DNA of 64,000 nucleotides, taken from assembly GCF_007197755.1 (NCBI RefSeq), contig NZ_CP041636.1:682001-746000 (forward strand). Direction: 5' to 3'. Below are positions 19,715-34,705 of the stretch, piece after piece; position 1 is the first letter of the stretch, and every line of letters begins with the position of its first letter. The notes beneath the pieces were generated by a model. That model searched no databases, was not told the origin of the DNA, and was given only the letters and a program-made list of their open reading frames with translations. The DNA comes from Ferrovibrio terrae (GTDB lineage Bacteria; Pseudomonadota; Alphaproteobacteria; Ferrovibrionales; Ferrovibrionaceae). The position numbers and the translations under genes are program-made.

Positions 19715-19766
19715 GAAACTGCAATATTCCCGCGGAAGTCCTAATCTGTCGCCGCAAGGGGATTCG

Positions 19767-21983
19767 ATGACGGCTGCAACTGTAACTGCGCGACCGCGGC
19801 CAGCCAGCCAGGGGGTCTGGAACTGGCTGACGCTTGGCTTTATCGGCTTTGTCCTGCTGCCGTGGTATGCGCTGCCGGGCAGCGGCCTGTTCTCGCTGTC
19901 CTGGCTCTATGGCTATCCCTCGGCTGGATCGGCATCGGCTTTCTGGCAGATTGTCGCGCAGGATCGCGGCTGGCTATTGCTGCCTGCGCTGCCGCTGCTC
20001 GGCATTGCCGCTGCCATAGCCGTGCCGCGCGATGCGCCGCTGCATGGCCGCCTGCTGGTCTGGTGCGGTGCAGCAGGTGTCGCCCTGCTGCTGGCACAGG
20101 GTTTCGCCATCGATCATCGCGGGCCGACGCTCGGCAGCCTGCACCTTCTGCTGCCGCTCGATGCCAAGCAGCCCGGCTTCGGCCTCGGCGCCGCCCTGCT
20201 CGGCTTTGCCTATCTGATGCTGTTCGCACGCGGCCTGGCACGGCGTGGCTTCTGTCGCGGCGACGCCTTCACCGTCGGCGCCATCACGCTGATCGTGGCG
20301 CTGATCGTGCTGTTCGTTTTCTTCCCGGTGCTCAGCGTGCTGCTGCAGGCCTTTGCCGGACCGCCGGCCGAGATCATGGCGAAAGGCTTCGACCGTTCGA
20401 TCTGGGGGCTGGGCTGCCTGAGCAGCAACCTGCGCTGCGGCGTGGCCTGGAACACGCTGTTCCTTGCCGTCATCGTCGGCGCTGGCACAACCTTGCTGGG
20501 TCTCGCCTTTGCGCTGATCGCGGTACGTACCGGATTTCGCTTCAAGCCGCTGCTGCGCCTGCTCACCGTGCTGCCGATCATCACGCCACCCTTCGTGATC
20601 GGCCTGGCGCTGGTGCTGCTGTTCGGGCGCTCCGGCGCGGTGACCGCGTTGATGCTCGACCTGTTCGACATTCCGCGCTCGCGCTGGATTTACGGCTTCA
20701 CCGGTATTGCCATCGCGCAGCTGCTGGCCTTCACGCCGATTGCCTTCCTGGTGCTGATCGGCGTCGTGCAGGGCATCGCACCCTCGCTGGAAGAAGCGGC
20801 ACAGACCCTGCGCGCCAACCGCTGGACCACCTTCCGCACCGTGACCTGGCCGCTGCTGCGCCCAGGCATTGCCAATGCTTTCCTGCTCGGCTTCGTCGAA
20901 AGCCTGGCCGATTTCGGCAATCCGCTAGTGCTCGGCGGCTCGTACGATGTGCTGTCGACCAAGATTTTCTTCGCCATTGTCGGCGCCGCACACGACGAGA
21001 GCCGCGCCGCCATCCTCGCCATCATCCTGCTGGTGTTTACGCTGGGCGCCTTCTGGGTGCAGCAGCACTGGCTCGGCAACCGCACCTACACCACCGTGAC
21101 CGGCAAGGGCGATTCCGGTGTGCCTGCGCCACTGCCGCGCAGCGTCAGCTTCATCTGCTATGCGCTCGCCCTGCCCTGGGCTTTGTTCACCGCCGTGATT
21201 TATCTGACGATATTGTTCGGCGGTTTCGTCAAGGCCGTCGGCCGCGACCACAGTTTCACGCTATCGCATTACATCGCAGGCTTCGCCATCGAATGGGGCG
21301 CACATGGCCTGATCTTCACCGGCTCGGCCTGGGGTTCCTTCGGCATCACGCTGTGGATTTCGGCGATCAGTGCGCCGCTCACGGCCGGGATTGGTGTGCT
21401 GACCGCCTGGCTGCTGACGCGCCAGCAGTTTGCCGGTCGGCGGGCCTTTGAATTCGGCACCATGCTCAGCTTCGCCATTCCCGGCACGGTGATCGGCATT
21501 TCCTATGTGCTGGCCTTCAACGTGCCGCCGCTGGAATTGACCGGCACCGGCATCATCCTGGTGATCTGCTTCATTTTCCGCAACATGCCGGTCGGCGTGC
21601 GCGCCGGCATCGCCACGCTGAGCCAGATCGACAAGAGCCTGGACGAAGCGTCGCTCACGCTGGGTGCCGGGGCGGCGGGAACCTTCCGCCGCATCATGCT
21701 GCCACTGCTGCGTCCCGCCGTGGTGGCCGCGCTGGTCTACAGTTTCGTGCGCGCCATGACGGCGGTCAGCGCCATCATCTTCCTGGTGACGGCACAGTAT
21801 AATATGGCCACAGCTTATATTGTCGGTCGCGTCGAGGCCGGCGAGTTGGGTCTGGCGATTGCCTATTCCTCGGTCCTGATCGCGGTGATGGTGCTTGCCA
21901 TCGCCGTGATCCAGTTCATCGTCGGCGAGCGCAGGCTTGGCCGCCGCAGCATTGCCGCCAGCCCGTTGCCGGCGGCCGGTTAA
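19767..21983 (+). CDS. ABC transporter permease, fused, with N-terminal membrane extension (AfuB-like)
   Basis: A 738-residue inner-membrane protein. After an N-terminal extension of about 190 residues with several hydrophobic helices come two fused BPD_transp_1 domains with EAA loops EEAAQTLRANRWTTFRT and DEASLTLGAGAAGTFRR. The extension distinguishes it from the other two permeases here and resembles AfuB of sugar-phosphate importers. The open frame extends back to 19635, but ATG at 19767 has AAGGGG upstream and avoids overlap with the divergent gene. It leads an operon with two binding proteins and an ATPase. Confidence 0.88.
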   Translation: MTAATVTARPRPASQGVWNWLTLGFIGFVLLPWYALPGSGLFSLSWLYGYPSAGSASAFWQIVAQDRGWLLLPALPLLGIAAAIAVPRDAPLHGRLLVWCGAAGVALLLAQGFAIDHRGPTLGSLHLLLPLDAKQPGFGLGAALLGFAYLMLFARGLARRGFCRGDAFTVGAITLIVALIVLFVFFPVLSVLLQAFAGPPAEIMAKGFDRSIWGLGCLSSNLRCGVAWNTLFLAVIVGAGTTLLGLAFALIAVRTGFRFKPLLRLLTVLPIITPPFVIGLALVLLFGRSGAVTALMLDLFDIPRSRWIYGFTGIAIAQLLAFTPIAFLVLIGVVQGIAPSLEEAAQTLRANRWTTFRTVTWPLLRPGIANAFLLGFVESLADFGNPLVLGGSYDVLSTKIFFAIVGAAHDESRAAILAIILLVFTLGAFWVQQHWLGNRTYTTVTGKGDSGVPAPLPRSVSFICYALALPWALFTAVIYLTILFGGFVKAVGRDHSFTLSHYIAGFAIEWGAHGLIFTGSAWGSFGITLWISAISAPLTAGIGVLTAWLLTRQQFAGRRAFEFGTMLSFAIPGTVIGISYVLAFNVPPLELTGTGIILVICFIFRNMPVGVRAGIATLSQIDKSLDEASLTLGAGAAGTFRRIMLPLLRPAVVAALVYSFVRAMTAVSAIIFLVTAQYNMATAYIVGRVEAGELGLAIAYSSVLIAVMVLAIAVIQFIVGERRLGRRSIAASPLPAAG

Positions 21984-22002
21984 ACCCCAACAGGAGCGCA
22001 TC

Positions 22003-23034
22003 ATGAAACTGGTCCGCAAAAGTCTGATCGCCGTCATCGCCCTGCTTGCCTTCGGGCAGTCCGCACCGGCGCATGCGCAGGCACAGGTCACCGTCTATTG
22101 CAGCCTGCTGGCCGAATGGTGCGAGATCATGCGCGCCGAATTCGAACGCAGCACCGGCATCAAAGCGGCCGTGAGCACCAAGAGCACCGGCGAGACCTTC
22201 GCACAGATCCGCGCCGAGGCCGAAAACCCGCGCGGCGATGTCTGGTGGGGCGGCCCGAGCGATTCCCACCTTCAGGCCGCCGAGTTGAACCTGCTGGAGG
22301 AATACCGCTCGCCGACGTTGGCCAAGCTGCATCCCTGGGCGCAGCGTGCCGCCGAGATTTCGAAATACCGCAGCATTGGCATCTATGCCGGCACGTTGGG
22401 ATTGGTCTGGAACACCGAGGCACTGGCCAAGCGCAAGCTGCCCGCGCCGCGCTGCTGGGCCGACATGATCAAGCCGGCCTATCGCGACGAAGTGCAGATG
22501 TCGAACCCGACCACTTCGGGCACGTCTTACGTGATGCTGGCGACGCTGGTTCAGATCATGGGCGAGGAGCCGGCCTTCGCCTATCTCAAGGCGCTGCATG
22601 CCAATATCAACCAGTATCCGCGGTCTGGCGCCGCCCCGATGGCCAATGTGGCGCGTGGCGAGTCTGTCACCGCGATCACCTGGATGTTCGCGGCGGTGGC
22701 CGAAGCCCAGCTCGGCGCGCCGGTGACATCGGTCGCGCCCTGCGAAGGCACCGGTTACGAGATCGGTTCGATGTCGATCATCAAGGGCAGCCGCAATCTG
22801 GAAGCTGCGAAGAAGTGGTATGAATTCGCCCTGACTCCGGCCGCGCAGGCGACCGGCGTGAAGGCCAAGAGCTTCCAGATCCCGAGCCATGTCGATGCCC
22901 CGATCCCGCCCAACACGCCGAAGCTGGAAGAGGTCAAGCTGATCAACTACGACTTCGCCAAATACGGCCAGGCCAGCGAGCGCAAGCGCATCCTGGATCG
23001 CTGGGAGAAGGAAATCTCCAGCCTGCCGAAGTGA
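22003..23034 (+). CDS. Periplasmic solute-binding protein, AfuA-like (first of a tandem pair)
   Basis: A 343-residue secreted protein with signal peptide ending AHAQA and AGGAG before the ATG at 22003. The mature part has VTVYCSLLAEWCEIM, STGETFAQIRAEAENPRGDV and PCEGTGYEIGSMSIIKG. These are features of the AfuA group, which looks like Fe3+-binding proteins but binds sugar phosphates. No YY iron ligand pair is present. It lies 19 nt after the permease, and its paralogue follows 29 nt downstream, so the same permease may be served by two specificities. Confidence 0.82.
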   Translation: MKLVRKSLIAVIALLAFGQSAPAHAQAQVTVYCSLLAEWCEIMRAEFERSTGIKAAVSTKSTGETFAQIRAEAENPRGDVWWGGPSDSHLQAAELNLLEEYRSPTLAKLHPWAQRAAEISKYRSIGIYAGTLGLVWNTEALAKRKLPAPRCWADMIKPAYRDEVQMSNPTTSGTSYVMLATLVQIMGEEPAFAYLKALHANINQYPRSGAAPMANVARGESVTAITWMFAAVAEAQLGAPVTSVAPCEGTGYEIGSMSIIKGSRNLEAAKKWYEFALTPAAQATGVKAKSFQIPSHVDAPIPPNTPKLEEVKLINYDFAKYGQASERKRILDRWEKEISSLPK

Positions 23035-23063
23035 CCACATAAGATTTCATAAAGGAGGAAACC

Positions 23064-24101
23064 ATGTCTGTCCGTCTTCTGCCGGCGCTTGCTGTTGCTG
23101 GTATCGCCGCCCTCGTCAGCCCGCCCGTCAAGGCGCAGTCCACCGGCGAACTCACCGTATATTGCAGCGCGCTGATCGACTGGTGCCAGTTGATGAGCAA
23201 CGAGTTCCAGAAAAAGACCGGCGTCAAGGTGACGATGACGCAGAAGGGTTCGGGCGAGACCTTTGCCCAGATCCGTGCCGAGGCCAGCAATCCGAAAGGC
23301 GATGTCTGGTGGGGCGGCACCGGCGATCCGCATCTGCAGATGGCTGAGCTGGGATTAAGCGAGGAATACCGTTCGCCGACTTTGGCCAAACTGCATCCCT
23401 GGGCACGCCAACAGGCGGAACAGTCGAAGTATCGTACCGTCGGCATTTACGCTGGCCTGCTCGGCTTCGCCTACAACACTGAGCTGCTGGCCAAGAAGAA
23501 AGGCGCTACCGCGCCGCAATGCTGGAAGGACCTGCTGAAGCCGGACTTCAAGGACGAGATCCAGATCTCCAATCCGTCGTCGTCCGGCACGGCCTATACC
23601 GCCATCGCCACGCTGGTGCAGCTGATGGGCGAAGACCAGGCCTTTGCCTATCTGAAGCAGCTGCATGGCAGCGTGAACCAGTATACCCGCTCCGGTCCTG
23701 CGCCGGCACGCAACACTGCGCGCGGCGAAACCATGATCGGCGTGATGTTCCTGCATGATGCCGTCGCCGAAGCCGTCGAAGGCTTCCCGGTCGCTGTACA
23801 GGCGCCCTGCGAAGGCACCGGCTACGAGATCGGCTCGATGTCGATCATCAAGGGCGCGCTCAATCTGGAGAATGCCAAAAAGTGGTATGAATACGCACTG
23901 TCGGCCGAAGGCCAGGCACTGGCAGTGCGTGGCAAATCCTATCAGGTGCCATCGAATGTCGACACCCCGCTGCCGCCCAAGGCGCCGCGCCTGGAAGCCA
24001 CCAAGCTGATCAACTACGACTTCGCCAAATACGGCACCGCCGCCGAACGCAAGCGCCTGATCGAGCGCTGGGAAAAAGACGTCGGCAGCCAGGCCAAGTA
24101 A
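23064..24101 (+). CDS. Periplasmic solute-binding protein, AfuA-like (second of a tandem pair)
   Basis: A 345-residue paralogue of the preceding protein, sharing the same blocks almost throughout (LTVYCSALIDWCQLM, GSGETFAQIRAEASNPKGDV, PCEGTGYEIGSMSIIKGA). The signal peptide ends near VKAQS. AAGGAGG precedes the ATG, a stronger ribosome site than that of its twin. Differences fall at positions likely to line the ligand cleft, for example SSSGTAYTAI against TTSGTSYVML and MIGVMFLHDAV against VTAITWMFAAV. The pair may therefore bind related but different ligands. Confidence 0.84.
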   Translation: MSVRLLPALAVAGIAALVSPPVKAQSTGELTVYCSALIDWCQLMSNEFQKKTGVKVTMTQKGSGETFAQIRAEASNPKGDVWWGGTGDPHLQMAELGLSEEYRSPTLAKLHPWARQQAEQSKYRTVGIYAGLLGFAYNTELLAKKKGATAPQCWKDLLKPDFKDEIQISNPSSSGTAYTAIATLVQLMGEDQAFAYLKQLHGSVNQYTRSGPAPARNTARGETMIGVMFLHDAVAEAVEGFPVAVQAPCEGTGYEIGSMSIIKGALNLENAKKWYEYALSAEGQALAVRGKSYQVPSNVDTPLPPKAPRLEATKLINYDFAKYGTAAERKRLIERWEKDVGSQAK

Positions 24102-24114
24102 GGGAGTTACATTG

Positions 24115-25182
24115 ATGTCGCAGTCCGGTCCGGCCTCGGTCGAGTTCCGCCAGGTGTCGAAGCGTTATGGCGAGGTCACGGCGGTGAATGCCGTGTCCTT
24201 CACCATCGCGCCCGGCACGCTGGTGACCCTGCTGGGGCCGTCGGGCTGCGGCAAGACCACCACCCTGCGTCTCATTGCCGGACTGGAGATGGCGAGCGAA
24301 GGCCAGATCCTGATCGGCGGCGAGGATGTCACGCGACTGTCGGCGGCCGAACGCGGCGTCAGTATGGTGTTCCAGTCCTATGCGCTGTTCCCGCATATGA
24401 ATGTGCTGGAAAACGCTGCTTACGGCCCGACCGTCAGCGGCCTGCCGCGCAAGCAGGCCGAGGCGATGGCGGCCGAGAAACTGGCGCTGATGGGCCTGAC
24501 GGGTTTCGAGAAGCGCCTGCCGTCGGAGCTGTCGGGCGGCCAGCAGCAGCGTGTGGCGGTGGCACGCGCGCTGGTGCTGGAACCGCGCGTGCTGCTGTTC
24601 GACGAACCGCTCAGCAATCTGGATGCCAAGCTGCGCCGCCGCGTGCGCGAGGATATCCGCGAGTTGCAACAGCGACTGAACCTGACCGTGGCCTATGTGA
24701 CGCATGACCAGGAGGAAGCGCTGGCGGTGTCGGACCGCATCATTGTGATGTCGAATGCCGTGATCGCGCAGGAAGGCACGCCGCGCGATCTCTACGAACA
24801 GCCGGCCGATCTCTTCGTGGCCGACTTCATCGGTGATTCCAACATTGTCGATGCGGAAATTCTATCCGTCAGTGGTGACATTGCCGATGTTCGCCTGGGA
24901 AATCTGAGACTGGCCCTGCCGCATCGCGGCGTGGCGAAAGGCCCCGCCAAACTGGCCGTCCGCCCCGAAGCCGTGACGGTCACTGCCGCTGGCGGTCAGG
25001 ACGGCCTGGCCGGAGATATTACCAAAGCCGCCTATCTGGGCAGCCATATGGAATACAGTATCCGCACGGCAGAGGGCACATTCTTCGTGATCGATGAAGA
25101 TGTGGCCCGGCCGCTTGCCCTCGGCACCCCCGTGACAATTTCCTGCAGGTCCACCGGCGCCACTTTGCTCCTCCCGACCTGA
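24115..25182 (+). CDS. ABC transporter ATP-binding protein (partner of the AfuB-like permease)
   Basis: A 355-residue ATPase with Walker A GPSGCGKTTTLRLIAG, signature LSGGQQQRVAVARAL, Walker B LLFDEPLSNLDAKLRRR and VTHDQEEAL. A TOBE-type C-terminal domain follows. A TTG one codon upstream (24112) could also initiate; ATG at 24115 after GGGAG is preferred. It ends the operon and is convergent with the alcohol dehydrogenase gene, with no clear terminator between them. Confidence 0.92.
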   Translation: MSQSGPASVEFRQVSKRYGEVTAVNAVSFTIAPGTLVTLLGPSGCGKTTTLRLIAGLEMASEGQILIGGEDVTRLSAAERGVSMVFQSYALFPHMNVLENAAYGPTVSGLPRKQAEAMAAEKLALMGLTGFEKRLPSELSGGQQQRVAVARALVLEPRVLLFDEPLSNLDAKLRRRVREDIRELQQRLNLTVAYVTHDQEEALAVSDRIIVMSNAVIAQEGTPRDLYEQPADLFVADFIGDSNIVDAEILSVSGDIADVRLGNLRLALPHRGVAKGPAKLAVRPEAVTVTAAGGQDGLAGDITKAAYLGSHMEYSIRTAEGTFFVIDEDVARPLALGTPVTISCRSTGATLLLPT

Positions 25183-25242: not shown

Positions 25243-26415
25243 TCAGGTCAGATCTCCGGCCACAGCCTTGCGGAATACGGCTTCGAGCGCCGCCGCATTG
25301 ACCGGCATTGGATTGCCGCCGGCCGAGGGATCCTGTTCCGCCATGCGGCCGATTTCGGCAGCCCGGTCTGCCGGGACCTTGATATCGGTCAGGCTGTTCG
25401 GAATGCCGAGATCTTTGCGGAATGCCAGAACCCAGTCGAAAACGGCATCGAATGTCTGCTGCGGCAGGTCGAGTACCTGGGCCAGCAGTTTCATGCGATC
25501 CGCGATGGCGTTGCGGTTATGCCGCATCAGGTAGGGCAGCAGCACGGCATTGGTCAGGCCATGATGGGTGTCGTAGACCGCGCCGATGGGATGCGCCAGC
25601 GCATGCACGCCGCCCAGGCCCTTCTGGAACGCCACGGCGCCCATCGAAGCGGCGGCCAGCATGCGCGAGCGCGCCTCTATATCCCTGCCATCGCGATAGG
25701 CGCGCGGCAGATACTGCTTGATCAGGCGCATGCCTTCCAGTGCAATGCCGTCGGCCATCGGATGGAAACCCGGCGCGCAATAGGCCTCGAAGCAATGCAC
25801 GAAGGCATCGACGCCGGTGGCGGCGGTGATATGCGGCGGCAGGCCGACGGTGAGCTCCGGATCGGCGATCACCAGGGCCGGCAGCATGCGCGGGTGGAAG
25901 ATGATCTTCTTCTCGTGGCTGGCCTCATTGGTGATCACCGAGGCGCGGCCGACTTCGGAACCGGTGCCCGACGTGGTGGGCACGGCCACCACCGGCGCCA
26001 TGCCGGCGACGTTGACGCGGTCAGCATTGTCACCGACATCCTCGAAATCCCAGAGCGGCCGGGTCTGTCCCGCCATCAGCGCCACGGCCTTGGCGGCGTC
26101 GATGCCGCTGCCGCCGCCAAAGGCTATCACGCCGTCATGGCCGCCGGCCTTGTAGGCGGCAACGCCGGCATCGACATTCTCGCCGGTCGGATTGCCCTTC
26201 ACCCCGGCAAACAGCCCGGTCGGCAGACCATTGGCGGCATTGCGGTCAAGGCAGGCTTTCACCATCGCAGACTCCGCCAGGCCCTGGTCGGTGATCAGCA
26301 GCGGCCTCTTCATGCCGAGCGAGCGGCAGGCCTGCGGAAGTTCTGCAATGCGGCCAGGACCGGACCAGATCGTGGTCGGGTAATTCCATTTGCTGACGAG
26401 AACAGGGGCGGGCAT
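25243..26415 (-). CDS. Iron-containing (group III) alcohol dehydrogenase
   Basis: A 390-residue Fe-ADH. The nucleotide segment GVIAFGGGSGIDAAKAV and VAVPTTSGTGSEVGRAS are followed by metal ligands in DAFVHCFEAY and GGVHALAHPIGAVYDTHHG. The frame continues to 26634, but the extra 73 residues are unlike the family; ATG at 26415 has GGAG upstream. It would interconvert an alcohol and aldehyde with NAD. As the last gene of the phosphatase/ligase/ALDH operon it probably oxidises the alcohol end of an amino-alcohol derivative. A reductive role is the alternative. Confidence 0.88.
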   Translation of the reverse strand: MPAPVLVSKWNYPTTIWSGPGRIAELPQACRSLGMKRPLLITDQGLAESAMVKACLDRNAANGLPTGLFAGVKGNPTGENVDAGVAAYKAGGHDGVIAFGGGSGIDAAKAVALMAGQTRPLWDFEDVGDNADRVNVAGMAPVVAVPTTSGTGSEVGRASVITNEASHEKKIIFHPRMLPALVIADPELTVGLPPHITAATGVDAFVHCFEAYCAPGFHPMADGIALEGMRLIKQYLPRAYRDGRDIEARSRMLAAASMGAVAFQKGLGGVHALAHPIGAVYDTHHGLTNAVLLPYLMRHNRNAIADRMKLLAQVLDLPQQTFDAVFDWVLAFRKDLGIPNSLTDIKVPADRAAEIGRMAEQDPSAGGNPMPVNAAALEAVFRKAVAGDLT

Positions 26416-26432
26416 GGGATGGACTCCAGAAA

Positions 26433-27824
26433 TTACGTAGCAACACGCAGGTGGAAGGATTTCGGCCGCGTCAGCTGTTCGAAACCGACGCTCGACAACG
26501 TGCAGCCGCGTCCGGAATTCTTCACGCCGGTCCAGGCCAGGGCCGGATCGAGATAATCGCAGCGATTCATGAAGACGGTACCGGTTTCGAGTTGCGAGCC
26601 CAGTCTGGCGGCCGCGTCGGCATCGCGGGTCCACAATGCCGCCGTCAGGCCATACTCACTGTCATTCATCAACCGGATCGCCTCATCGTCGCCCGACACT
26701 TTCATGATACCGATAGCGGGACCGAAGGTTTCCTCGTTCATGATCCGCATGGAGTGATTCACACCGACCAGCACCTGCGGCGCCAGATAGGGCGAACCAG
26801 CCTGATCAGCGGCAAAGTCTTGCACCGAGATCAGCGCCTTTGCGCCCTGCTGCACCGCCTCAGCAATCTGGCCGCGCACGAAATCGGCGGCCTGGCCGCG
26901 CACCATGGGGCCAAGGTTTGTTTCCGCCGCGGTTGGGTCGCCCAGCTTGTACTGCTTCGTGAGCGTGACGAAACCATCCACAAACCGGTCATACAGCGAG
27001 TCATGCACATAGATGCGCTCAATGCCGCAGCAGGACTGACCGGAGTTGAAGAAGGCACCGTCAACCAGATTCTCCACCGCATGGGCCAGATCGGCATCGG
27101 CCCGCACATAGGCTGGATCCTTGCCGCCCAGCTCCAGGCCGGCCCCGATGAAGCGGTCGCTCAGCGCATGCTGCACGGCACGACCGCCGGCGACCGAACC
27201 GGTGAAGGCAACATAGCCGACTCGCGCATCGCGCATCGCCGCCTCGGTATCCGCATGAGTCATATGCAGGAACTGGAACACGCCCTCGGGCAACCCGGCT
27301 GCACGGAAGGCTTCGGCATAACGCTCGGCACAAAGCGGCGTCTGGTGCGAATGCTTCAGCAGCACCGTATTGCCGGCCAGGAGTGCCGGAATCACGGCAT
27401 TGACAGAGGTGAGATACGGATAATTCCACGGCGCAATGACGAAGACGACGCCATGCGGTTCGCGGCGGATGAAACGGCGGAAGCCGTCCTTCGCCGCCGG
27501 CTGCAGATCGGCCAGTGCTTCCGGCGCAATGGCGATCATGTGATTGGCACGCTCGGCGAACCCACGCACCTCACCCGGCGTCTGGCCGATCGGCCGCCCC
27601 ATCTGCAAGGTCAGTTCCTGCGCGATCTCGGCACTTTTTGCGGTGAAAGCAATCACAGCGCGGCTCAGAATCGCGCGGCGCTCATCCAGCGGCGTGGCGC
27701 GCCAGCCGGCACCTGCGGCGGCTGCCTTTGCCAGTGCCGTCTCGATGGCAGATTCATTGGCAAGCGGGCGTTCGACATAGACGCGGCCATCGACCGGACT
27801 GATGCACTGAAACGAAGCAGACAT
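26433..27824 (-). CDS. NAD(P)-dependent aldehyde dehydrogenase
   Basis: A 463-residue ALDH with catalytic cysteine in FNSGQSCCGIERIYV, the oxyanion/glutamate block LELGGKDPAYV, APWNYPYLTSVNAV for cofactor binding and EETFGPAIGIMKV. It oxidises an aldehyde to an acid in the cytosol. It lies 17 nt upstream of the Fe-ADH gene and 12 nt downstream of the glutamine-synthetase-like gene. This resembles the PuuA-PuuC arrangement of polyamine breakdown, in which an ALDH acts on a gamma-glutamyl aldehyde. Confidence 0.9.
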   Translation of the reverse strand: MSASFQCISPVDGRVYVERPLANESAIETALAKAAAAGAGWRATPLDERRAILSRAVIAFTAKSAEIAQELTLQMGRPIGQTPGEVRGFAERANHMIAIAPEALADLQPAAKDGFRRFIRREPHGVVFVIAPWNYPYLTSVNAVIPALLAGNTVLLKHSHQTPLCAERYAEAFRAAGLPEGVFQFLHMTHADTEAAMRDARVGYVAFTGSVAGGRAVQHALSDRFIGAGLELGGKDPAYVRADADLAHAVENLVDGAFFNSGQSCCGIERIYVHDSLYDRFVDGFVTLTKQYKLGDPTAAETNLGPMVRGQAADFVRGQIAEAVQQGAKALISVQDFAADQAGSPYLAPQVLVGVNHSMRIMNEETFGPAIGIMKVSGDDEAIRLMNDSEYGLTAALWTRDADAAARLGSQLETGTVFMNRCDYLDPALAWTGVKNSGRGCTLSSVGFEQLTRPKSFHLRVAT

Positions 27825-27836
27825 GAAGACCAGACC

Positions 27837-29210
27837 TCAGATGATTTCGAAATAGCGGGCCAGCTGCCAATCGGTGATCGCCTTGCGATACTCGCGCTCT
27901 TCCCAGTCGCGCGTGGCAGCGTAATGTTCGACAAAAGCTTCACCGAACAGATTGCGGGCCGGTTTGCTGGCATTCAGTCGGGCCGCCGCTTCCGACAGCG
28001 TGCGCGGCAGCTGGTATTTCGCCGGCAGTTCCTTCTCATAGGCATTACCCTGGATCGGCGCGGTCGGCTCGATCTTGTTCTCCACGCCCCACAGGCCGGC
28101 CCCGATGGCGGCTGCCATGGCGATATAGGGATTGATGTCGGCAGCAGCGATGCGGAATTCGACGCGCTGCGATTTCGGCGAGCCGGGAATGGCGCGCAGG
28201 GCCGTGGTGCGGTTCTCCACGCCCCACGAGGCTTGCGTCGGCGCCCAGAAGCCGGGGATCAGGCGGGTGTAGCTGTTGACCGTGCAGGCGACCATGGCAA
28301 GGAATTCCGGTAGCATCGCCTGCTGCCCGCCGATGAAATGACGCATGGTGTCGGAGATCGCATGCGGCTTTTTCGCATCATGGAAGGCCGGCTTGCCGTC
28401 CTTCTTCTTGAGCGAGAGGTGGATATGGCCGCTCTGACCCGGCCAGTCATGCGACCATTTCGCCATGAAGGTGGCCATCAGGCCGCGACGTTGCAGCGCC
28501 GCCTTGGTGAAGGTTTTGAACAGCGCCGCCTTGTCAGCTGCCGCCAGCGCCTCGTCCACCGTAATGGCGGCTTCCAGCACGCCGGCACCGGTTTCGGTAT
28601 GCAGGCCTTCCAGCGGAAAATCCATCTTCAGGCCGAGGTCGATCAGTTCGTGATACAGTTCGGCTTCCACGGAGTTGCGCAGCACCGAATAGCCGAAGAA
28701 GCCCGGCGTGATCGGCTGCAGTTTGCGGTATCCCTTCTCGCGAATGCTGTTTGGGGTTTCGTTGAAGACGAAGAATTCGAATTCGCAGGCACCAAGTACG
28801 GAGTAGCCCATATCGCTGGCGCGCTTCAGCACGCGACGCAGCACGGCGCGCGGACAAACGGTGTCGGCCGGCGGCGAAAACTCGCCGAGGAAGAACAGCG
28901 TATCCGGTTCCCAGGGAATCTCACGGCAGGTATCTGGCAGCACGCGGACAGGGGCATCGGGATAGGCGGTATGCCAGCCGGTGTATTTCACGTTGTCGTA
29001 AAGCTGGTCGTTCGAGTCCCAACCCAGCACGACGTCGCAGAAGCCGAAGCCGCTATCGAGTGCAGAGAGGAATTTCTCGGCCGAGATGTATTTGCCGCGC
29101 AGGATGCCGTCGACATCGAAAGCACCAACCTTGACCCGGTCGATCTTGCGTTCGGTCAGAATTTTGCGAGCATCGGTCGCGGTCCTGACCTGTCTGGGTT
29201 TCATCGCCAT
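27837..29210 (-). CDS. Glutamine synthetase-family gamma-glutamyl-amine ligase
   Basis: A 457-residue member of the GS catalytic superfamily, with CEFEFFVF (metal glutamates), GHIHLSLKKKDGKP (active-site histidine) and NSYTRLIPGFWAPTQASWG. The N-terminal beta-grasp is short, and the adenylylation-loop tyrosine of GlnA is not evident. It therefore belongs with PuuA/IpuC/GlnA4-type ligases, which join glutamate to amines, rather than with housekeeping GlnA. Neighbouring ALDH, Fe-ADH and phosphatase genes suggest the amine is an amino alcohol such as ethanolamine; this is inference. No gamma-glutamyl hydrolase gene is nearby. Confidence 0.82.
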   Translation of the reverse strand: MAMKPRQVRTATDARKILTERKIDRVKVGAFDVDGILRGKYISAEKFLSALDSGFGFCDVVLGWDSNDQLYDNVKYTGWHTAYPDAPVRVLPDTCREIPWEPDTLFFLGEFSPPADTVCPRAVLRRVLKRASDMGYSVLGACEFEFFVFNETPNSIREKGYRKLQPITPGFFGYSVLRNSVEAELYHELIDLGLKMDFPLEGLHTETGAGVLEAAITVDEALAAADKAALFKTFTKAALQRRGLMATFMAKWSHDWPGQSGHIHLSLKKKDGKPAFHDAKKPHAISDTMRHFIGGQQAMLPEFLAMVACTVNSYTRLIPGFWAPTQASWGVENRTTALRAIPGSPKSQRVEFRIAAADINPYIAMAAAIGAGLWGVENKIEPTAPIQGNAYEKELPAKYQLPRTLSEAAARLNASKPARNLFGEAFVEHYAATRDWEEREYRKAITDWQLARYFEII

Positions 29211-29236
29211 TCACCAGCCCCCGTTTATCGCCCTGT

Positions 29237-30043
29237 TCATCCCAGCAGTGTTTCCAGCGCCCAGCGGTGCAACGCGGGCGTGGCAGCCGCCACCACGCGG
29301 CCATCCGCCCCCAAGCCGAGCGACTGACCGTTCCAGTCAGTAACGACGCCGCCAGCACCTTCGATCACCGGCACCAGCGGCAGGTAATCGTAAGGTTGCA
29401 GCCCGACCTCGACTACCAGATCGATATGACCGGCTGCCAGCAGGGCATAAGCGTAGCAGTCGCCGCCGAACCGCCGCAGGCCGATCTGCCCGCTCAACCG
29501 CTCGAAAGCCGCAAGATCCGTGCCAGTGAACATGTCCGGCGAAGTGGCATACAGCGTGGCCTTGGCCGGATCGCTGCAGTCGCTGGCGCGGCAGGGTTGG
29601 CCGTTCAGGCTGGTGCTCTGCCCAGCCTGACCGACCCATAACTCGTCGAGTATCGGCATGTCGATCAGACCGAGTTGCGGCCGACCATCGTCCAGCAAGG
29701 CAATCAGCGTACCGAACAACGGCATGCCGGTGACGAAACTCTTTGTGCCGTCAATTGGATCGATCACCCAGGTGAACCGCGCGCCGAGACGCTCCGCACC
29801 CTGTTCTTCGCCGAAAATGGCGTGTTCGGGATGTCGGGCGGTCAGGATCGCGCGCAGCTCGGCTTCGATACCCCGATCAGCGACAGTCACCGGACTCGCA
29901 TCGGCCTTGCGCTCCACCGCAAGTCGCTGACGGAAATAGCGTCGCGCGATCGGCCGGGCCACCGCCACCAGATCTCGCGCCGTGGCCAGGTGGATTTGGG
30001 AATTGTTGCGGGCCGATGCTGAAGCGACAGGCGACTGTTGCAT
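29237..30043 (-). CDS. Inositol-monophosphatase-family phosphatase, HisN-like
   Basis: A 268-residue Mg-dependent phosphatase with metal motifs IFGEEQG and WVIDPIDGTKSFVTG. The later FGGDCYAYALLAAGHIDLVVE is characteristic of HisN-type histidinol-phosphate phosphatases. HisN acts on a phosphorylated amino alcohol, which fits the proposed pathway of this operon. No other histidine genes are near, so a housekeeping histidine role is less likely. ATG at 30043 gives the normal family length; the frame runs to a TTG at 30166 that would collide with the divergent gene. It is the first gene of the 30043-to-25243 operon. Confidence 0.82.
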   Translation of the reverse strand: MQQSPVASASARNNSQIHLATARDLVAVARPIARRYFRQRLAVERKADASPVTVADRGIEAELRAILTARHPEHAIFGEEQGAERLGARFTWVIDPIDGTKSFVTGMPLFGTLIALLDDGRPQLGLIDMPILDELWVGQAGQSTSLNGQPCRASDCSDPAKATLYATSPDMFTGTDLAAFERLSGQIGLRRFGGDCYAYALLAAGHIDLVVEVGLQPYDYLPLVPVIEGAGGVVTDWNGQSLGLGADGRVVAAATPALHRWALETLLG

Positions 30044-30053
30044 TTTTGGGCAT

Positions 30054-30081
30054 TTGTGGATTTCTGTGTAATTTTTTATAG
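30054..30081 (+). promoter_or_regulatory. Possible promoter for the AepX-like importer operon
   Basis: TTGTGG (30054-30059) and TTATAG (30076-30081) are spaced 16 nt apart, in the divergent gap upstream of the binding protein starting at 30166. A tandem 10-bp repeat (GCATTTTTGG/GCATTTGTGG, 30040-30059) overlaps the -35 and the start of the opposite gene. It could be a binding site for the DeoR protein encoded at 33935. Confidence 0.35.
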
Positions 30082-30165
30082 ACGGCTTTACGGGGGTCTG
30101 CAACAATTCCGCATGGTCGCCCGGATACAGGGTCCGGATGCCGGCCGACAGACGGGGGATACTCA

Positions 30166-31182
30166 ATGCTCGAGCGTTTCAAATCCATGCTGCTCGCTGG
30201 CGCCGCCAGCATGCTGATGTTCACCGCCGGCGCCGCACAGGCTGGCACCATCACGGTCTACACCGCGCTGGAAGAAGACGAGATCGCCGATTACGTGGCG
30301 CTGGCCAAAAAGGAAATTCCCGATGTGACGGTGAATGTGCTGCGCCTGTCCACCGGCGACCTTGGCGCGCGCATCATGGCCGAAGCCGGCAACCCGCAGC
30401 ATGACGTGATCTGGGGCTGGGCCGTCACCAACATGATGGATCCGCGGATTCTGGCCCTGGTCGAGCCCTACAAGGTCAAGGGCAGCGACAAGCTGGGTGC
30501 CGCCTATCAGGCAGCCGACGGCAAGTGGTTTGCCGCCACCGGCTATATCGGCGCCTTCTGCGTCAACACCGAGCGGTTGAAGCAAAAGAACCTGCCGATG
30601 CCGAAGAGCTGGAACGACCTGCTGAATCCCGCCTTCAAGGGCGAGATAGCGATGCCGAACCCCGTCTCCTCGGGCACCGGCTATCTGCAGATCGTCTCGA
30701 TCCTGCAGAAGATGGGCGAGGAAAAGGGCTGGGCTTTCCTCAAGCAGCTCGACGCCAACGTGAATCAGTATATCAAGTCCGGCTCGCGCCCGTGCCGCTC
30801 TGCCCGTGCGGGTGAATTCACGGTCGGCACATCGCTGGCCTTCGCCGCGATCAAGTCGATTGAGGAAGGCTTCCCGCTCGCCATGGTGCTGCCCAGCGAA
30901 GGCGCCGGCTACGAACTTGAGGCCTCGGCACTGATGGTTGCCTCGAAGAACAAGGCCGATGCGAAGAAATTCCTCGACTGGACCATGTCGCCGGGCGCCT
31001 CCGGTCTCTATGCCAAGTACAAGGAACTGGTCACGCTGCCGGGCTACAAGCCTGCCAAGGCCGCGCGCGATGCCGGCATGCCTGATGATCCGGGCAGCAT
31101 CCTGTACAAGATGGATTTCGCCGCCTCAGCCGTGCAGCGGGAAGCGATCCTGGCGCGCTGGACCAAGGAAATCGGCCGCTGA
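30166..31182 (+). CDS. Periplasmic binding protein, 2-aminoethylphosphonate type (AepX/PhnS2-like)
   Basis: A 338-residue secreted protein with signal peptide ending GAAQA. The mature part opens ITVYTALEEDEIADYV and includes LSTGDLGARIMAEAGNPQHD, MPNPVSSGTGYLQIV and SGSRPCRSARAGEFTVG. I recognise this block order from 2-aminoethylphosphonate-type binding proteins (phnS2/AepX group). The start follows GGGGG. Importer genes follow directly, and HisN-like phosphatase and amine-ligase genes diverge from it. The ligand may be 2-aminoethylphosphonate or a phosphate ester of an amino alcohol. No PhnW or PhnX gene is in the window. Confidence 0.83.
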   Translation: MLERFKSMLLAGAASMLMFTAGAAQAGTITVYTALEEDEIADYVALAKKEIPDVTVNVLRLSTGDLGARIMAEAGNPQHDVIWGWAVTNMMDPRILALVEPYKVKGSDKLGAAYQAADGKWFAATGYIGAFCVNTERLKQKNLPMPKSWNDLLNPAFKGEIAMPNPVSSGTGYLQIVSILQKMGEEKGWAFLKQLDANVNQYIKSGSRPCRSARAGEFTVGTSLAFAAIKSIEEGFPLAMVLPSEGAGYELEASALMVASKNKADAKKFLDWTMSPGASGLYAKYKELVTLPGYKPAKAARDAGMPDDPGSILYKMDFAASAVQREAILARWTKEIGR

Positions 31183-31195
31183 GCCTGCTACACTG

Positions 31196-31231
31196 ACGGG
31201 CGGCTGGAACCCGGCCGCCCGTTCTCGTTTC
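31196..31231 (+). terminator. Stem-loop between binding-protein and ATPase genes
   Basis: ACGGGCGGC (31196-31204) and GCCGCCCGT (31214-31222) form a perfect 9-bp stem around TGGAACCCG, followed by TCTCGTTTCTG. Such intra-operon hairpins often protect or partly terminate the binding-protein message, giving more binding protein than membrane components. Confidence 0.6.
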
Positions 31232-31250
31232 TGCTGTATCAGGATGTTGC

Positions 31251-32243
31251 ATGCATCTCGCGATTGAGCAGGTCGCCAAGAGTTTCGGTCCCGTTGTTGC
31301 CCTGGATAATGTTTCGCTCGGCGTCGGCGCCGGCGAATTCGTCTGCCTGCTTGGCCCGTCAGGTTGCGGCAAGACCACACTGCTGCGCATCATCGCTGGA
31401 CTTCTCACGATGGATTCCGGCCGGCTGATCCTGGCCGGCCGCGACCTGACACAGGTGCCGGCCCGCCTGCGCGGATTCGGCATCGTCTTTCAGTCCTACT
31501 CGCTGTTTCCCAACATGAGCGTGGCCGCCAATATCGGCTATGGCCTGAAACTGCGCGGTACGCCGGCGGCAGACATCGCAAAGCGCGTGAACGACCTGCT
31601 GGCGCTGATCAAGCTGCCGCAGATCGCCGACCGCTATCCCTGGGAATTGTCCGGTGGCCAGCAGCAGCGCGTCGCCCTGGCGCGCGCCATTGCCGCCGAT
31701 CCCGCCCTGCTGCTGCTGGATGAACCGCTCTCGGCGCTGGATGCCAAGGTGCGTGCCGAACTGCGCGAAGAAATCCGCGACCTGCAGCGCCGGCTTGGTA
31801 TCCCGACCGTGATGGTGACCCATGATCAGGAAGAAGCCCTGACGCTGGCAGACCGCATCGTCTGCATGAGCAAGGGCCGCATCGAACAGGCCGGCACGCC
31901 AGCTGACCTTTACGCGCGCCCCACCACGCGCTTCGTGGCCGATTTCATGGGCGTCAGCAACCTGATCCAACCGTCTACGCTATCCGCCCTGTTGCCGCAG
32001 ATGATGCAGGGCTATCCCGGCGGCGATCACCTGCTCTGCCTGCGGCCCGAACATCTGGCTGTGCGTCCCGGCACGCTGGGCAAGGTGGTAAGCACCACAT
32101 TCCTTGGCAACATCACACGGCTGAAACTCGACACACCGCTGGGGATGTTGGTCGCGGAGTTACCCGGGCAGGCGAGCTTTGCCCCCGGCGACGGCATCGA
32201 TATCGCGCCTGATCCGGCGCATGGAGCCTGGGTCGTGGCATGA
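31251..32243 (+). CDS. ABC transporter ATP-binding protein (AepV/PhnT2-like)
   Basis: A 330-residue ATPase with Walker A GPSGCGKTTLLRIIAG, signature LSGGQQQRVALARAI, Walker B LLLLDEPLSALDAKV and VTHDQEEAL. A shorter C-terminal regulatory domain than in the other two ATPases follows from about residue 230. Its stop overlaps the permease start as ATGA. It belongs with the binding protein at 30166 and the permease at 32240. Confidence 0.92.
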   Translation: MHLAIEQVAKSFGPVVALDNVSLGVGAGEFVCLLGPSGCGKTTLLRIIAGLLTMDSGRLILAGRDLTQVPARLRGFGIVFQSYSLFPNMSVAANIGYGLKLRGTPAADIAKRVNDLLALIKLPQIADRYPWELSGGQQQRVALARAIAADPALLLLDEPLSALDAKVRAELREEIRDLQRRLGIPTVMVTHDQEEALTLADRIVCMSKGRIEQAGTPADLYARPTTRFVADFMGVSNLIQPSTLSALLPQMMQGYPGGDHLLCLRPEHLAVRPGTLGKVVSTTFLGNITRLKLDTPLGMLVAELPGQASFAPGDGIDIAPDPAHGAWVVA

Positions 32244-33931
32244 CCGCCGTCAGCGCAGCGCCACCCCAAACGGCTCCTTTGGCGCGAGAACGTACCGACC
32301 GGATATTCGATCTCGCCTGCCTGTGGATTCCGGCTGCGGCGCTGCTGCTGTTTTTTGTCTATCCGATCGGCATGATGGGTTACCGCAGCCTGCTGCTGCC
32401 CGACGGCTCGCTAGGCTTCAGCAATTTTGCGCAGATCATCGGTTCGCGCAGCTTTCTCAAGGCGCTGGTCAACAGCCTGACCATGGGTCTGGTCACCACG
32501 GCCGTCACGGTCGGGCTAGGCCTGCTGCTCGCCTTCGCGCTGCATCGCTGCCGCATCTGGCTGCGCATCGTTCTGCTCGGCGCCATCAGCCTGCCGGTGA
32601 TCGCGCCTTCGCTCGTTCAGGGCCTGGGCCTGATCTTCCTGCTGGGCCGCAATGGCCTGATCAATAAAACCTTTGGCATGCAGATCGAGATCTACGGCTT
32701 CTGGGGCCTGCTGATCGCTAACACGCTCTATGCCCTGCCGCAGGCCGCCATGATCATCGGCGCGGCGTTGCGCAACGCCGATGCACGGCTATTCGAGGCC
32801 GCCGAGGTGATGGGTGCCACGGGCTGGCGCCGCTTCATCGACCTGACGCTGCCCAATATCCGCTTCGGCCTGCTCAGCGCCACCTTCGTGGTGTTTACCG
32901 TCACCATCACCGACTTCGGCAATGCCGCCGTAATTGGCGGCGACTACACGGTGCTGGCAATCGAGATCTACAACCAGGTCATCGGCCAGATGAACCTGAA
33001 TCTGGGCGCCGTGGTCGGCATGCTGCTGCTGCTGCCCACCGTACTGGCCTTCTATTTCGAACGCCTGGCGACGCAGCGCCAGTTCGGTACCCAGTCGGAA
33101 TTAGCCGTGCCCTACCGGCCGGACCGCGATCCGTGGCGTGACGGCATTGTCGGCACACTGGCCTGGCTGGTCGCGCTGGCACCGGTCACCGTGGTCGGCG
33201 TCGTGGTCTATGCCAGCTTCATGCGCCTGTGGCCCTACCGCCTCGACTTCACCTTCAGGCATTACGACATCAAACTGGCCGGCGGTTACGACCCGTTGTG
33301 GATCAGCATCGGCATCTCTGCGGCTGCCGCCGGATTCGGCACCATTTTCCTGCTCTTTCTCGGTGTGGCGCTGAAACGCTTGGGCGGCCCGGCGGCGCGG
33401 GCGATCTATTTCGTTTCCATGCTGCCGGCTGCGGTGCCGGGTCTCGTGCTTGGTCTGGCTTATGTCTTTGCCTTCAACCAGCCCGGTACGCCGCTGATCC
33501 TGCTCTACGGCAGTGCGGTACTGCTTGCGATGTGCAATTTCTACCATTATCACACGCAGGGTTTCGCCACGATGACGACCGGCCTGCGCCAGATTCCGCC
33601 GGCGCTGGAGGAAGCCGCCACCTGTATCGGCGCATCGGCTTGGGCGGTGCTGCGCGACGTCTACATCCCCTATACCCTGCCGACCCTGATCTCGGTGTTC
33701 TTCTTCCTGTTCATGAGTTCGATGGTCACGCTGTCTGCCGTTATTTTCCTGGTCACGCCGAGCCTGATGCTGGCGGCCGTGACGGTGATGCGTCTCGACG
33801 AAGCCGGCTTCACGGCCCAGGCTGCTGCCTTCTCCACGGCCATCATGCTGGTGGTCACTGCCGCCCTGCTGATGGCGCGCGGCACGCTCTGGCTGGCGCA
33901 GCGACGCATCCGCCTGCCGGCGGAGGCCTGA
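32240..33931 (+). CDS. ABC transporter permease, two fused domains (AepW/PhnV2-like)
   Basis: A 563-residue inner-membrane protein with two fused permease domains and about twelve TM segments. EAA loops are FEAAEVMGATGWRRFID and EEAATCIGASAWAVLRD. The first 25 residues are polar and cytoplasmic. The gene overlaps the ATPase gene by 4 nt and is followed 3 nt later by the DeoR regulator, so regulator and importer are made together. Confidence 0.9.
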   Translation: MTAVSAAPPQTAPLARERTDRIFDLACLWIPAAALLLFFVYPIGMMGYRSLLLPDGSLGFSNFAQIIGSRSFLKALVNSLTMGLVTTAVTVGLGLLLAFALHRCRIWLRIVLLGAISLPVIAPSLVQGLGLIFLLGRNGLINKTFGMQIEIYGFWGLLIANTLYALPQAAMIIGAALRNADARLFEAAEVMGATGWRRFIDLTLPNIRFGLLSATFVVFTVTITDFGNAAVIGGDYTVLAIEIYNQVIGQMNLNLGAVVGMLLLLPTVLAFYFERLATQRQFGTQSELAVPYRPDRDPWRDGIVGTLAWLVALAPVTVVGVVVYASFMRLWPYRLDFTFRHYDIKLAGGYDPLWISIGISAAAAGFGTIFLLFLGVALKRLGGPAARAIYFVSMLPAAVPGLVLGLAYVFAFNQPGTPLILLYGSAVLLAMCNFYHYHTQGFATMTTGLRQIPPALEEAATCIGASAWAVLRDVYIPYTLPTLISVFFFLFMSSMVTLSAVIFLVTPSLMLAAVTVMRLDEAGFTAQAAAFSTAIMLVVTAALLMARGTLWLAQRRIRLPAEA

Positions 33932-33934
33932 GCC

Positions 33935-34705
33935 ATGTGGTCGCAGGATCGCCATCGCCGCATCCAGGGCCTGCTTGGCCATCACAAGCAGGTTTCAGCC
34001 GATGAACTGGCCCGGCAACTGGATGTTTCGCGCGAAACCATCCGCCGCGATCTGGTCGAACTCGAAGCGGCCGGGCTGCTGCGACGGGTGCATGGCGGCG
34101 CCATCCTGCCCGAGCAAACCGGCAAGGAAGCGCCGTTCGCCGATCGTATGCAGGTGCGCAGGCGTGAGAAACAGGCGATCGCCCGCGCCGCCGCCCGGCT
34201 GGTGGAACCCGGCCAGACCTGCTTTGTCGACGCCGGCAGCACCACTGCATTGCTGGCGGTCGAACTGGCTAAAATTCCCGGTATCACGGTGATCACCAAT
34301 TCGATCGATGTGGCCGGCACGATCAACCGCGACGGCATCGAAGCCACGGCCCTGCTGTTGGGCGGGCAGTTGCACAGCGATGTGCCCGGCACTTTCGGCG
34401 AGCTGACTTTAAGCGAGGTTGCGCGCTTCCAGGTCGATATCGCACTGCTGTCGCCGGTGGCAATCCACGCCGAGCGCGGCGCCAGCAACTTCGTGCTGCA
34501 CGAGGCCGAAGTGGCGCGCGCCATGATCCGCTATGCTGACGAATTCGTACTTCTGGCCGATCACGGCAAGATCGGCCAGGTCAGCCGCGCCAATATCTGC
34601 AGCTGCAGCCACATCCACCGCCTGGTCACCGACAGCGCGGCCGGCCGCAAGCCGTTAGCCGAGTTGCGCCGCGCCGGCATCGGCGAGATCATCGTCGCTG
34701 ACTAG
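33935..34705 (+). CDS. DeoR-family transcriptional regulator
   Basis: A 256-residue regulator. The N-terminal winged helix holds ADELARQLDVSRETIRRDL and LLRRVHGGAIL, the DeoR signature. The C-terminal DeoRC sensor domain contains FVDAGSTTALLAVEL and LLADHGKIGQVS. Sensors of this family bind phosphorylated metabolites, which fits an organophosphate importer and phosphatase. GGAGG precedes the ATG. It probably represses its own operon and perhaps the divergent phosphatase operon. Its stop codon overlaps the end of the integrase remnant on the other strand. Confidence 0.9.
   Translation: MWSQDRHRRIQGLLGHHKQVSADELARQLDVSRETIRRDLVELEAAGLLRRVHGGAILPEQTGKEAPFADRMQVRRREKQAIARAAARLVEPGQTCFVDAGSTTALLAVELAKIPGITVITNSIDVAGTINRDGIEATALLLGGQLHSDVPGTFGELTLSEVARFQVDIALLSPVAIHAERGASNFVLHEAEVARAMIRYADEFVLLADHGKIGQVSRANICSCSHIHRLVTDSAAGRKPLAELRRAGIGEIIVAD

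Follow-up and report, generated by a model that had tools for sequence, protein, structure and literature searches.

An eight-gene cluster of Ferrovibrio terrae very probably brings in intact phosphoethanolamine and degrades it, as judged from sequence comparisons. It lies in the window, by which we mean the whole 64-kb stretch of DNA that was analyzed, and has two divergent arms, with the enzyme genes on the minus strand (30043..25243) and the importer and DeoR genes on the plus strand (30166..34705). The original prediction of a 2-aminoethylphosphonate-type importer and a DeoR regulator diverging from a HisN/GS-like/ALDH/Fe-ADH operon was confirmed by open reading frames and protein families, as follows.

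25243..26415, minus strand: iron-containing alcohol dehydrogenase (Fe-ADH; PF00465/PF25137), start ATG at 26415; predicted gamma-glutamylethanolamide dehydrogenase, GETADH-like
26433..27824, minus strand: aldehyde dehydrogenase (ALDH; PF00171), GS neighbor kept; predicted gamma-glutamyl-aminoacetaldehyde dehydrogenase, GAADDH-like
27837..29210, minus strand: glutamine-synthetase-like (GS-like) gamma-glutamyl ligase (PF00120); predicted ethanolamine gamma-glutamylase, ETAGA-like
29237..30043, minus strand: HisN-like phosphatase of the inositol-monophosphatase family (IMPase; TIGR02067); predicted phosphoethanolamine phosphatase
30055..30068, minus strand: CACAGAAATCCACA, operator-like CACA-N6-CACA motif in the divergent promoter region
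30166..31182, plus strand: periplasmic substrate-binding protein (SBP), TIGR03261-like, below the cut-off; predicted to bind phosphoethanolamine
31251..32243, plus strand: ABC transporter ATPase, TIGR03265-like (PF00005 and TOBE_2)
32240..33931, plus strand: ABC transporter permease with two permease units fused, TIGR03262-like (PF00528 twice)
33935..34705, plus strand: DeoR/GlpR-family regulator (PF08220 and PF00455)

The arrangement is not a product of chance, since three other Ferrovibrio genomes keep the complete gene order (SBP identity, 87 to 99%). An adjacent importer (~19764-25182) was left out of the system; in sibling genome G002 it is on a separate contig.

In the proposed pathway, the SBP, ATPase, and permease would carry phosphoethanolamine into the cytoplasm, and the HisN-like phosphatase would convert it to ethanolamine and Pi. 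The GS-like ligase would join ethanolamine and glutamate using ATP, Fe-ADH would oxidize the alcohol end to an aldehyde, which ALDH would oxidize further to give gamma-glutamylglycine, and a GATase-type hydrolase, whose gene stands beside the operon in two sibling species and not here, would release glycine and glutamate. Every step from the ligase onward is predicted by transfer from the pathway of Phaeobacter, Chromohalobacter, and Agrobacterium. Import, dephosphorylation by HisN, gamma-glutamylation, and two oxidations had been proposed in the original prediction; that succession is supported as the best reading, with phosphoethanolamine quite likely the substrate.

The predicted gamma-glutamylation enzymes

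The ligase, ALDH, and Fe-ADH genes form a trio that is conserved across alphaproteobacteria, often adjoining ethanolamine transporters. Both ALDH and Fe-ADH were near the GS gene in 45 of the 52 loci having sufficient flanking sequence, and Fe-ADH followed GS and ALDH in equal order in most loci compared. The adjoining transporters were of the TRAP (8/52 loci) and APC (11/52 loci) types; the TRAP binding protein scored 565 bits against solved chain 4uab, and the model nearest to the APC protein was the ethanolamine permease TIGR00908 (348.5 bits). The window ligase is ~70% identical to GS proteins adjoining these transporters, and its profile scores were under the cut-offs of the GlnA, GSIII, and gamma-glutamylputrescine synthetase models.

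In Phaeobacter sp. MED193, the ethanolamine gamma-glutamylation pathway consists of ETAGA, GAADDH, GETADH, and GGAH with the TRAP transporter EtoVWX, and pathway genes were also reported in Chromohalobacter salexigens and Agrobacterium (PMC10132767). The Phaeobacter trio cluster is induced on phosphoethanolamine, and its TRAP protein binds ethanolamine with a Kd of 7.9 uM (PMC10132767). The Ferrovibrio and Phaeobacter systems have the GS-like ligase, ALDH, and Fe-ADH genes in equal order and share ethanolamine as an intermediate. In Phaeobacter, however, PhoX hydrolyzes phosphoethanolamine outside the cytoplasm and ethanolamine enters by TRAP, whereas in Ferrovibrio a predicted organophosphate ABC importer and cytoplasmic HisN-like phosphatase would replace PhoX and TRAP, and DeoR replaces RpiR. 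The trio half of the cluster is already known from Phaeobacter, Chromohalobacter, and Agrobacterium, and the novelty that the original prediction implied for it does not stand (PMC10132767). What is new is most likely the modular combination of phosphoethanolamine uptake and intracellular dephosphorylation, in which both the importer ligand and the HisN substrate are predictions from sequence.

The gamma-glutamyl protection logic is shared with PuuABCD and with Streptomyces GlnA4, which PMC6529630 describes as active on ethanolamine. As the original prediction held, this is not a Puu pathway: the ligase scored 185.8 bits against the gamma-glutamylputrescine synthetase cut-off of 650, and the cluster has Fe-ADH and ALDH with no Puu oxidase among its genes. 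The supposed absence of a gamma-glutamyl hydrolase was true of the locus but not beyond it. A class-I GATase gene, a candidate gamma-glutamyl hydrolase, lies directly after Fe-ADH in two of the four Ferrovibrio species, both siblings of F. terrae, and a Peptidase_C26 protein is encoded in the F. terrae genome away from the locus. Searching that genome with the full-length sibling GATase protein revealed no dedicated last-step hydrolase.

Importer neighborhoods and the identity of the cargo

Conservation of the four enzymes together, expected from the original prediction, was found within Ferrovibrio but not outside it, where the trio is conserved without HisN or the importer and these occur separately. 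In Azospirillum, the importer and HisN accompany EutB-EutC (ethanolamine ammonia-lyase), which replaces the trio (SBP 69 to 70% identical), and HisN genes adjoin EutBC in Azospirillum, Aureimonas, Shinella, and Rhizobium. On Klebsiella and Enterobacter plasmids, the importer and DeoR genes are accompanied by a gene for a class-III PLP protein, and among solved structures this protein matches ethanolamine-phosphate phospho-lyase 6tor best (1e-101); a relative of this protein is also in the importer locus of G437. We rejected PbfA as the identity of the Klebsiella protein, which shares 26% identity with Vibrio PbfA and scored 193 bits against a cut-off of 525. Because the importer and HisN occur here without the trio but with other enzymes of ethanolamine or phosphoethanolamine use, these loci are stronger evidence than simple conservation. 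EutBC and phospho-lyase in equivalent positions indicate an ethanolamine skeleton, and the phospho-lyase indicates a monoester.

The same associations make two other kinds of substrate quite unlikely: phosphate esters of other primary-amine alcohols, such as phospho-aminopropanol, and phosphodiesters of ethanolamine, such as glycerophosphoethanolamine. Ligases of the GS-like type can take several amines, and a glycerophosphodiesterase gene follows sister-clade importers in loci L235 and L239, but a gene panel including GDPD detected no phosphodiesterase near importers of the window clade.

The importer shares transporter architecture and best model matches with PhnS2-T2-U2, a putative 2-aminoethylphosphonate importer (TIGR03261/03265/03262), and these top named models would make 2-aminoethylphosphonate the cargo that the enzymes process. 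In some other lineages (L238/L268, L269, and L100), phosphonate-linked sister-clade importers also adjoin the ethanolamine trio. All three Ferrovibrio proteins, however, scored under the curated cut-offs: 330.9 bits versus 392.75 for the SBP (TIGR03261), 392.3 versus 457.7 for the ATPase (TIGR03265), and 491.4 versus 593.25 for the permease (TIGR03262). PhnW, already noted as absent in the original prediction, was missing from the whole single-contig genome by profile search (best, 32.8 bits; cut-off, 400.8), and the importer stands without PhnW, PhnX, or PbfA. In the SBP tree, the window protein falls within a 14-row clade (support, 99/98) with HisN or phospho-lyase nearby in 14/14 rows, whereas phosphonate-linked SBPs (PhnW, PbfA, or PhnX nearby), with a Vibrio control, lie across a 96/98 branch. 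The wider SBP group includes eight rows with neither a phosphatase nor an ethanolamine gene nearby. None of the four minus-strand enzymes is known to cleave a C-P bond. Given the sub-cut-off scores, the SBP tree, and the absence of PhnW, we consider a phosphonate cargo quite unlikely and reject it, along with the phosphonylated substrate that the original prediction had allowed.

A sugar phosphate cargo, with HisN a sugar phosphatase and the trio only adjacent, would fit with DeoR proteins often being sensors of such compounds. The nearest solved relatives of the SBP are AfuA (closest) and P5PA, which take phosphorylated ligands (sugar phosphate and vitamin-B6 phosphate, respectively; PMC4546632, PMC8427247). 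The AfuABC and P5PA importers have homologous binding proteins, and the SBP retains their phosphate-contact residues (T63, G64, and S169-G170-T171); because the phosphonate-linked clade keeps them too, they do not tell the two apart. The AfuA sugar-binding residues H205 and D206, in contrast, are replaced by F226 and A227, so that of H205, D206, and E229 only the glutamate is kept (E250). The Ferrovibrio importer further differs from AfuABC and P5PA in its single-chain fused permease and its gene context. The importer is independently associated with EutBC and with a phospho-lyase, and the arrangement is retained in four Ferrovibrio species. We reject an AfuA-like cargo as highly unlikely because the sugar residues are lost.

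Histidinol phosphate is a 2-amino-alcohol phosphate, and the window HisN passes the TIGR02067 cut-off (287.3 versus 275.15 bits) with its metal-site motifs intact (GEE, DPIDGT, and PYD all present). That it is the cell's histidinol-phosphatase, here by chance beside an importer of unrelated cargo, is nonetheless extremely improbable, as a second HisN elsewhere in the genome, likewise above that cut-off, scores higher and is the copy common to other Ferrovibrio species, ruling out the window gene as the only histidinol-phosphatase, and HisN adjoins the importer and/or EutBC in several genera. Unlike housekeeping HisN, the window copy is in an operon with ethanolamine genes and falls apart from the Ferrovibrio housekeeping clade in the HisN tree. 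The ethanolamine-linked group in that tree has moderate support (94/91) and includes genes without an assigned role; at the chosen threshold, no alignment columns cleanly divided ethanolamine-linked from other HisN proteins.

Putative regulation and significance of the proposed phosphoethanolamine import

A related DeoR gene is present in the loci of nearly all SBP-clade members. The CACA-N6-CACA motif has just two matches within the 64 kb, one being 30055..30068, and is found at the same place in three other Ferrovibrio loci and in Klebsiella/Enterobacter, Roseinatronobacter, and G763/G764, and thus in promoter regions of four SBP-clade lineages. DeoR proteins often sense sugar phosphates; this one probably senses a phosphorylated compound and acts at CACA-N6-CACA sites to control the divergent promoter.

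A very common bacterial membrane lipid has phosphoethanolamine as its head group. We think it likely that the importer belongs to a dedicated, widespread ABC family for intact phosphoethanolamine, part of a modular island found in soil and marine alphaproteobacteria and on enterobacterial plasmids. In this island, the enzyme that removes phosphate (a HisN-type phosphatase or a PLP phospho-lyase, perhaps also a HAD phosphatase) and the enzymes that use ethanolamine (gamma-glutamyl trio or EutBC) would each be interchangeable, and its genes would now carry the annotations aminoethylphosphonate importer and histidinol-phosphatase. No described bacterial phosphoethanolamine importer was found in open-access papers, and the main open-access study of bacterial phosphoethanolamine use left open whether the head group is imported intact before catabolism (PMC10132767). 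The cluster offers specific genes for such a route, which would free nitrogen, carbon, and phosphorus together without a secreted phosphatase. A whole clade has probably been misannotated as 2-aminoethylphosphonate importer and histidinol-phosphatase, an error that would distort metagenome counts of phosphonate use.

Gene content and conservation of the cluster

The original prediction described an enzyme operon divergent from an importer and DeoR regulator. All eight genes were confirmed.

Genes of the divergent cluster, each identified as an open reading frame with a family match
25243-26415, minus strand, Fe-ADH
26433-27824, minus strand, ALDH
27837-29210, minus strand, glutamine synthetase (GS)-like ligase
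29237-30043, minus strand, HisN-like phosphatase (HisN)
30166-31182, plus strand, substrate-binding protein (SBP)
31251-32243, plus strand, ATPase
32240-33931, plus strand, fused permease
33935-34705, plus strand, DeoR regulator

Within the genus, the four enzymes and the importer are conserved together: the eight-gene order is identical in three further Ferrovibrio species. The window ligase is 95% identical to that of Ferrovibrio sp. EaCA-1. The genome is a single contig of 4,264,634 bases. Convergent with Fe-ADH lies a second, AfuABC-like importer (19764-25182, plus strand) with two tandem SBPs, the second retaining the AfuA residues SSGT, FLHD, and EGTGYE and the first lacking SSGT and HD; in sibling genome G002, the SBPs of this importer type are on a different contig.

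A known ethanolamine trio

Ligase relatives with 62 to 77% identity occur across Alphaproteobacteria and in some Gammaproteobacteria. Among 52 loci with enough flanking sequence, ALDH and Fe-ADH both lie near the ligase in 45, a class-I GATase in 20, an APC permease in 11, an FGase-type hydrolase in 10, and a TRAP binding protein in 8. The TRAP binding protein matches solved chain 4uab (565 bits), which we take to be a Chromohalobacter protein with ethanolamine bound, and the best model for the APC permease is ethanolamine permease TIGR00908 (348.5 bits, below the cutoff of 381.75). The ethanolamine cluster of Phaeobacter MED193 comprises ethanolamine gamma-glutamylase, gamma-glutamyl-aldehyde dehydrogenase, gamma-glutamylethanolamide dehydrogenase, the TRAP transporter EtoVWX, and a hydrolase; its authors link it to pathways that have been demonstrated in C. 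salexigens and A. tumefaciens (PMC10132767). Its gene set and order are those of the trio loci. The trio (ligase, ALDH, and Fe-ADH) is judged equivalent to the Phaeobacter pathway by its gene content, order, and transporter identity, and is already known. Whereas Phaeobacter has a TRAP ethanolamine transporter, Ferrovibrio instead has an ABC importer and HisN.

Shinella, Rhizobium, and Paracoccus-type bacteria have plasmid-borne operons, with EutBC (L223 and L274) or without it (L224, L272, and L273), that carry HisN, a Zn-dependent hydrolase, phosphotransferases (one annotated as choline kinase family) or an amidase, and mostly a peptide-type ABC importer; these operons possibly serve the use of an ethanolamine derivative, either an amide or an N-acyl compound.

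Importer ligand and phosphatase

The closest solved relatives of the window SBP are AfuA, which binds hexose and heptose phosphates, and P5PA, which binds pyridoxal phosphate (PMC4546632, PMC8427247). By alignment, the window SBP shares their phosphate contacts (T63, G64, S169, G170, and T171), whereas the AfuA sugar residues H205 and D206 are changed to F226 and A227. Because the phosphate-contact positions are conserved to the same degree in phosphonate-linked relatives, they indicate only a phosphoryl or phosphonyl ligand.

In the SBP tree, the window protein falls inside a 14-row clade (99/98), all 14 with HisN or a phospho-lyase nearby; the ten rows that have PhnW, PbfA, or PhnX in their neighborhood are on the far side of a 96/98 branch, and a Vibrio control SBP (phnW, phnX, and phnR nearby) groups with the phosphonate-linked rows. 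The long branches L256, L259, and L275 are less securely placed. In the HisN tree, the window copy groups with its three orthologues, apart from the Ferrovibrio housekeeping clade (100/100), which includes the second HisN of the genome (G000:448025, 296.7 bits). A 94/91 group holds most ethanolamine-linked HisN genes together with DeoR-linked genes of unknown role. At locus L227, HisN was recruited separately.

Modules are exchanged around this importer in other lineages. Azospirillum has the same divergent cassette (SBP 69 to 70% identical), with EutB and EutC, the ethanolamine ammonia-lyase subunits (model scores of 707 and 314 bits), directly after HisN. On plasmids of Klebsiella and Enterobacter, the genes opposite the importer and DeoR (SBP 65%) are different: the divergent gene encodes a class-III PLP protein. 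The top solved match of this protein is the ethanolamine-phosphate phospho-lyase 6tor (1e-101), followed by the "phospholyase" 5g4i; its assignment as PbfA was rejected. Genome G437 encodes a relative of this protein (752 bits) on the same strand as the importer and DeoR. HisN adjoins the importer in Sagittula, Roseinatronobacter, G763, and G764, a HAD phosphatase-family gene follows the permease in Sulfitobacter, Martelella, and G101, and Aureimonas, Shinella, and Rhizobium carry HisN-EutB-EutC without a window-type importer. These module swaps point to phosphoethanolamine as the substrate. Gene order, conservation, clades, module swaps, and the promoter motif are computational results; the importer ligand, the HisN substrate, the DeoR effector, and the pathway direction are inferred. 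The Klebsiella pneumoniae and Enterobacter hormaechei loci (L218 and L254) are on conjugative IncF-type plasmids, where the predicted phosphoethanolamine phospho-lyase is encoded along with the importer and DeoR.

The motif CACA-N6-CACA has two matches in the 64-kb window, one at 30055-30068 in the divergent promoter, and also lies upstream of the SBP in three other Ferrovibrio loci, Klebsiella/Enterobacter, Roseinatronobacter, and G763/G764 (0.02 to 0.04 expected per region in the same loci); the count is descriptive, as the motif was first spotted by eye in the same sequences. It is missing from all 12 loci that belong to the wider SBP group but not to the window clade.

Alternative substrates, the last step, and novelty

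ALTERNATIVES: The phosphonate, sugar phosphate, and phosphodiester readings were weighed. A phosphonate, the "phosphonylated" option of the original prediction, was rejected: PhnW is absent genome-wide, and the importer scores below cutoffs. At L268, L269, and L100, the trio adjoins a phosphonate-linked importer with PhnW (PbfA also occurs at L238 and L269), which suggests joint use of aminoethylphosphonate and ethanolamine. A sugar phosphate was rejected on the loss of sugar-binding residues in the SBP. Against a phosphodiester, a gene panel found no glycerophosphodiesterase-like gene (GDPD) in the clade loci. Sister-clade importers at L235 and L239 are followed by GDPD and possibly have a different ligand. 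A Martelella operon (L225) combines a phosphodiesterase with a sugar-type ABC importer and DeoR, and its HisN is the closest outgroup to Ferrovibrio HisN; the operon is perhaps a glycerophosphodiester route.

The absence of a gamma-glutamyl hydrolase, noted in the original prediction, is confined to this locus. In two sibling species, a GATase gene follows Fe-ADH; the window genome lacks it (best match, 33% identity). A candidate for the last step of the proposed pathway is the Peptidase_C26 protein at G000:61164.

Westermann et al. state that import of an intact lipid head group ahead of catabolism "remains to be determined" (PMC10132767), and our search of the open-access literature found no description of a bacterial phosphoethanolamine importer. 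The parts of the Ferrovibrio cluster are of known kinds; what is new is their combination and the predicted ligand.
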